Shown here in pieces: positions 27,733 through 28,308 of a DNA stretch of 32,579 nucleotides. The number at the start of each line of letters is the position of its first letter. Positions within the stretch are counted from its first letter, which is position 1. Below the pieces are notes generated by a model. It had not been told where the DNA came from. It ran no database searches and saw nothing but the letters and a program-made list of their open reading frames with translations. Source of the stretch: Microcaldota archaeon (lineage in GTDB: Archaea; Micrarchaeota; Micrarchaeia; Micrarchaeales; Micrarchaeaceae); contig JAJZMY010000018.1 in NCBI GenBank assembly GCA_021848125.1, positions 1 to 32,579 of the forward strand, written 5' to 3'. A program made the position numbers and the translations under genes.

Positions 27733-27903
27733 ATGTTTATAAATAATGGAAAATGCATTGTATGCGGGAAAATTTCCAAAATAATGGCACTCGGAACTGA
27801 AATTAAAAACCATGGCCTATGTATTGATTGCATTAATGCAATAAATAAAAATATTGTGAATATGAAACAGCAATTTCCTCTATTTTCTAAAAATAAATTC
27901 TAA
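27733..27903 (+). CDS. Zinc-ribbon miniprotein, unknown function
   Basis: A 56-residue protein (ATG at 27733; a TTG at 27688 would add 15 hydrophobic residues that look like spacer). Two CxxC pairs, C8-C11 and C30-C33, suggest a zinc ribbon. The sequence between them (GKISKIMALGTEIKNHGL) is otherwise unremarkable. ATGAGGGT just before the ATG is a weak ribosome site. The stop lies 3 bases before the left target repeat of the 297-bp insertion. Not recognised as a known family. Confidence 0.5.
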   Translation: MFINNGKCIVCGKISKIMALGTEIKNHGLCIDCINAINKNIVNMKQQFPLFSKNKF

Positions 27904-27906
27904 ACC

Positions 27907-28219
27907 TATAAATCGAGGCTGTTGAAAATTTATATGCACAGAAGAATTTTGGTTTTATCTTTCCACTAATAAATCGGCAACAAGGACTACCATGATGGTC
28001 ATTGATCAAATATATTTTGTAAATAAGGCATAAAATAATTCTAAATTAGCGCTTGCATTAGCATCAGCTATTTTGAAAATAATATTTTTCAATACAAAAT
28101 GAAAAAAATAATTTTTAGAGTTGTAAAATAATTTAGTATGTATTTTTTTAATTTTGCGGTTCCTTATATTTTATTGAAATTGTTTGAAAATTTAAGATTT
28201 TCAACAGCCTCTATAAATC
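27907..28219. mobile_element. MITE-like insertion with 15-bp inverted ends and 8-bp target duplication
   Basis: The core element (27915-28211, 297 bp) starts GAGGCTGTTGAAAAT and ends ATTTTCAACAGCCTC, perfect 15-bp inverted repeats. It is flanked by identical TATAAATC copies at 27907-27914 and 28212-28219, the signature of an 8-bp target duplication. The ends share CTGTTG-AAA with IS6-family inverted repeats, a family that also makes 8-bp duplications; that link is inference. No transposase-length frame exists inside, only short ones, so it is non-autonomous or a deletion derivative. It separates the zinc-ribbon gene from the second peroxiredoxin. Confidence 0.85.
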
Positions 28220-28308
28220 AATTAAGCAATATATTTATTAATTTTTTTAAGCTATTATTGATTATAAATAAATTCTATTTTTATAATTAATAAAATTAAA
28301 GTGATAAA

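Follow-up and report, generated by a model that had tools for sequence, protein, structure and literature searches.

A MITE beside a peroxiredoxin gene in a Micrarchaeota genome and its very probable descent from a DDE_Tnp_1-type insertion sequence

A 297-bp segment with perfect inverted ends lies upstream of a peroxiredoxin gene in a Micrarchaeota genome, and it raises the question of whether it is an inserted mobile element and, if so, to which kind of transposase its ends belong. The window analyzed here is the whole 32,579-nucleotide stretch, contig 22 of a 776-kb MAG (genome G000; 41 contigs, 94.7% complete). The segment is flanked by the target-site duplication TATAAATC, with the left copy at 27907..27914 and an exactly matching right copy at 28212..28219. 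The left terminal inverted repeat GAGGCTGTTGAAAAT (27915..27929, plus strand) is the perfect inverted match of the right one, ATTTTCAACAGCCTC (28197..28211, minus strand), and 267 bp separate the two. Neither a reading frame of at least 60 aa nor a transposase reading frame is found inside. The preliminary description of perfect 15-bp inverted ends, identical 8-bp flanks, a length of 297 bp and no internal transposase is confirmed to the base. Since the base preceding the right repeat agrees too (both sides read CTATAAATC), a 9-bp duplication is readable as well. The 8-bp parse is preferred because both ends are then symmetric and because the autonomous relative L163, described below, has exactly 8 bp.

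Such an arrangement could also arise by chance in AT-rich DNA or represent a conserved intergenic structure rather than an insertion. At about 73% AT, the surroundings favor chance repeats, and the 297 nucleotides fold well (z -3.7), partly owing to the inverted ends. However, nowhere else in the window does a perfect 15-bp inverted repeat lie between exact 8-bp direct repeats, a 12 + 8 pattern gives no further case, and none of 60 dinucleotide-preserving shuffles contains the 15 + 8 arrangement. The segment also belongs to a dispersed multicopy family, orthologous loci are without it, and the same ends occur on an element that carries a transposase. Chance or a conserved structure is extremely improbable against these observations, and the segment is treated below as an insertion.

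Judged by sequence similarity, the genome contains about 17–20 related copies. A BLAST search with the element against its own genome gives 21 similar stretches at 17 loci, 73–100% identical; the copies were examined through the loci surrounding these matches. The 15-bp ends recur. Twelve exact ends are present in the genome, compared with about 0.001 expected by base composition (our own estimate), and with up to two mismatches there are 32, against 3 for a reversed control pattern. All three sampled congeners are positive (5, 7 and 15 matches), and a weak match is found in only 1 of 56 more distant relatives. With 60 relatives compared, the family is almost confined to the genus. Virus, plasmid and phage collections contain no copy of the element, and the elements match no Rfam family, except for a tRNA adjoining a G003 copy.

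Complete copies are 184 bp (G000:C21 and C18), 257 bp (G002:C33), 297 bp (the window), about 340 bp (G002:C76 and C14) or 375–376 bp (G000:C2 and G003:C49) long. Both ends are common to all of these lengths, and the copies differ through internal deletions. In the window copy, the right segment (28083..28211, plus strand) is common to the 184-bp and 376-bp forms, with 86–87% identity over about 130 bp to the G000:C21 and G000:C18 copies; its last 107 bp are 88% identical to the G000:C2 copy. The middle part (28004..28082, plus strand) has little or no similarity to other copies in the family alignment and is presumably the deleted or decayed coding region. Among the complete copies only the one in the window has a perfect duplication, while G000:C21 matches at 7 of 8 positions and most others have none. 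The missing duplications might be due to decay, to recombination between copies or to assembly errors at repeats. Its perfect duplication places the window copy among the most recent, and the earlier term "recent" is correct in comparison with the others.

Many family members are solo ends or are located at contig ends, which is what repeats would give in short-read assemblies, and the inspected copies of the window's genome are sited between reading frames. These persistent intergenic solo ends could be explained if the family were kept as regulatory or structural DNA of the host, for example as promoter or terminator modules, and one old copy does seem to occupy the same site in both G001 and G003. 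However, selection against gene disruption leaves intergenic positions too, and the copies vary in length and content, and no constant placement with respect to gene starts is apparent. We consider a role as host DNA very unlikely and prefer to read the copies as a MITE family.

The surroundings of the window element are as first described, between a zinc-ribbon gene and a peroxiredoxin. The zinc-ribbon frame (27739–27906, four cysteines) ends beside the element and has no significant Pfam match, and the peroxiredoxin upstream region starts at 28220. The closest named relatives of this peroxiredoxin are in the Candidatus Micrarchaeota MAGs FK4.bin48 (locus L070, genome G003) and FK1.bin87 (locus L071, genome G002), with 87–88% protein identity. 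FK1.bin87 has the same order of genes (endonuclease III, PHP-type protein, peroxiredoxin and phosphoesterase), but both the element and the small zinc-ribbon frame are missing from the locus. In FK4.bin48 the element is absent and the peroxiredoxin has a different upstream neighbor. Nucleotide homology to both relatives begins at the insertion's right edge (28219/28220), and identity over the whole 679–689-bp matches is 84% for FK4.bin48 and 80% for FK1.bin87. The segment is therefore neither single in its genome nor carried whole by the relatives at this place, and the view of it as a MITE, a non-autonomous insertion, stands on both grounds. The comparison of strains for an empty site succeeds in part: two congeners are without the element at the orthologous locus, but the left flank, including the zinc-ribbon frame, has no counterpart in the relatives, so that the comparison yields no strict empty site with both flanks and a single TATAAATC. 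The proposal that the insertion altered the peroxiredoxin promoter is not borne out. The 89 bp before the start codon (28220..28308, plus strand) lie downstream of the insertion and are conserved in the alignments to both relatives, so the native upstream region is intact and uninterrupted. Nothing in these alignments supports promoter damage; an effect on the peroxiredoxin from farther upstream is conceivable.

The origin of the ends is indicated by L163 (G055:C11), a 1,225-bp insertion sequence from another Micrarchaeota family of the same order, which came to light when 301 genomes of the class were searched with the enzyme of element L104. L163 has the ends GAGGCTGTTGAAAAT and GAGGGTGTTGAAAAT and an exact 8-bp duplication, CTAGATAT. 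Its transposase gene is frameshifted; the two pieces score 27.7 and 41.9 bits with DDE_Tnp_1 (PF01609), and DUF772 (PF05598) scores 26.7 bits, all above Pfam cut-offs. Closer to the window, in the same genus, G003:C4 has the GAGGCTGTTGAAAAT end, a leader and then about 105 transposase codons before it is truncated, and its enzyme is 61% identical to that of L163 over 85 residues. The left segment of the window element (27915..28003, plus strand) is homologous to this 5' end, covering end repeat and leader, with 85% identity over 89 bp to G003:C4:815-903, from where the G003 sequence runs into the DDE transposase reading frame. In the 376-bp MITE form, one frame still encodes GHWYGNGRMYGK, and the counterpart in L163 is GHWYGNGVAYGK. 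Ends with one mismatch or slightly more diverged adjoin a transposase of this kind in G040, G237, G018 and G049. The parental ends are GAGG(C/G)TGTTGAAAAT, with 8 bp of target duplicated.

From the ends, the duplication length, the leader and the enzyme codons we infer that the window element is very probably a MITE derived by internal deletion from an approximately 1.2-kb Micrarchaeota insertion sequence with a DUF772 plus DDE_Tnp_1 transposase (IS5/IS1182-like). Descent from a DDE_Tnp_1 element is shown on the level of sequence comparison; for the window copy, which is without recognizable transposase codons, it rests on the ends and the left 89 bp. The element has the features of a MITE: it is short with inverted ends, has a target duplication and no transposase gene, is multicopy and dispersed, and has an autonomous element with the same ends as its source (L163, G003:C4 and the transposase codons in the 376-bp form). 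The parental element and the DDE_Tnp_1 elements of IS5/IS1182 type are alike in having both Pfam domains in the transposase, short inverted ends and a length of about 1.2 kb. They differ in that L163, with its GAGG.TGTTGAAAAT-type ends and 8-bp duplication, is below the NCBIfam cut-offs. The IS5/IS1182/IS4 models of NCBIfam give sub-threshold scores only (e.g. 28.6–34.1 bits vs 270), and L163 passes no curated IS5, IS1182, IS4 or IS982 model, a test weakened by the frameshift, as the gene was scored in two pieces. Because the curated family models match far below their cut-offs, the parental group is left unnamed.

The preliminary description had placed the element near the IS6 family on the basis of a CTGTTG-AAA core in its ends and the 8-bp duplication. 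Typical features of IS6 are a target duplication of 8 bp and the end motif cTGTt...caaa, archaeal members are often without the initial GG, and two MITEs of 227 and 336 bp are recorded (PMC7986276, PMC6807381). The ends studied here loosely resemble this type (GG...cTGTt.caaa), and the duplication fits IS6 but is common to other families too. However, PF13610 has no match at E ≤ 10 in the window's genome. Matches occur in 14 of 80 relatives, among congeners just one 17-bit remnant, and none of the PF13610 loci fetched from these relatives has the element's ends at up to two mismatches. The same ends and duplication length bound a DDE_Tnp_1 element instead, and codons of its enzyme are present in MITE copies, so we judge an IS6 origin highly improbable and do not retain the assignment. 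The likeness to IS6/IS26 and its archaeal-branch MITEs is limited to the 8-bp duplication, the CTGTT.AAA-like ends and the MITE size range; the transposase domain is different, and the IS6-type matches in relatives are without these ends. A family guessed from end motif and duplication length can mislead, as these IS6-looking ends belong with a different transposase.

In DDE insertion sequences, the enzyme binds both ends and joins the element to the cut target strands. By analogy, a DDE_Tnp_1-type transposase would bind both shared ends of the window element, the target strands would be cut 8 bp apart and the element would be joined to them; the window copy was probably inserted in trans by such a transposase. 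PF01609 is present in all four congeneric genomes (above cut-off in three). The class-wide search finds no enzyme of the L163 kind in the window's genome at E ≤ 1e-10, and fragments and damaged copies in related archaea, but no intact congeneric parent, were found. As no such intact transposase was found in its genome, the copy is probably stranded, unless the roughly 5% missing from the assembly encodes one. The G000:C2 and G003:C49 copies are 94% identical over 376 bp and have unrelated flanks, compared with 84% identity of the peroxiredoxin region in the same two species; this comparison, which rests on one pair of copies, suggests that a copy moved after the two species had diverged or was passed from one to the other. 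It is unlikely, in our estimate, that a genus-wide MITE family in these very small DPANN genomes is still moving, perhaps between species, with transposase from other lineages or lost elements and no intact resident enzyme.

Published archaeal MITEs come from Sulfolobus, Halobacterium, Haloquadratum and Desulfurococcus, among other hosts (PMC10969869). Like the copies described here, they are short and multicopy, with inverted ends, a duplicated target and no transposase, but they represent other families and hosts, and DPANN are absent from that review. For Micrarchaeota, our open-access searches by title or abstract yielded no report of MITEs. The window element is an ordinary, known kind of element in a poorly studied group. 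Its MITE family is documented here together with the parental insertion sequence in Micrarchaeota, and its copies can usefully serve to mark recent change among strains of Micrarchaeota.

Several other transposases were considered as the parent and rejected. An IS1595 parent (PF12762) has no match in the four congeneric genomes. A DDE_Tnp_1 element of the window's own genome (L101, G000:C8) has an IS5-type transposase and other ends, and the L102 transposase has ends of about TTAGGATCCTGACA. L104 of G002 is related and decayed; with its ends TA(C/G)TGTGTTGAA and a 9-bp duplication it is a sister insertion sequence instead. This element occupies L104:1292-2545 (G002:C47), its duplication reads GGATTTTAG, and it has leader sequence in common with the MITE of 376 bp. 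L105 seems to derive from the L104 element by internal deletion. Related DDE_Tnp_1 elements with ends TAGG(A/G)..(T/C)TGA(C/A)A are seen at L138, L143, L145, L148, L149, L152, L154 and L156. Such TAGG(A/G)-ended elements are found in many Micrarchaeota, several with 7–10-bp duplications, and make up a fairly large group that no curated family name covers.

The leader between end repeat and transposase start is about 95–100 nt long and G+C-rich for these genomes. It is seen in L060 (reverse complement; G003:C4), L104, L105, L163, L005, L054, L008 and L020, with a common TTAGCGGAGC-like core. Its hairpin is strong in some copies, with z of -3.9 in L105, -2.1 in L060 and -1.3 in L163. The leader has no Rfam match; it may be a structured 5' region that controls expression of the transposase.

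Two 250-bp stretches of the window's genome, L017 and L021 (G000:C3 and C35), are 90% identical, and in both the MITE left end reads in frame into a peptide weakly resembling an integrase core (rve_3). The two probably arose by duplication of a fusion with the remnant of another transposon. Exact but unpaired 15-bp ends are present at G000:C4:720 (L023) and G000:C41:38783 (L032), where they adjoin toxin-antitoxin-like genes (AbiEii-type nucleotidyltransferase, HepT-like).
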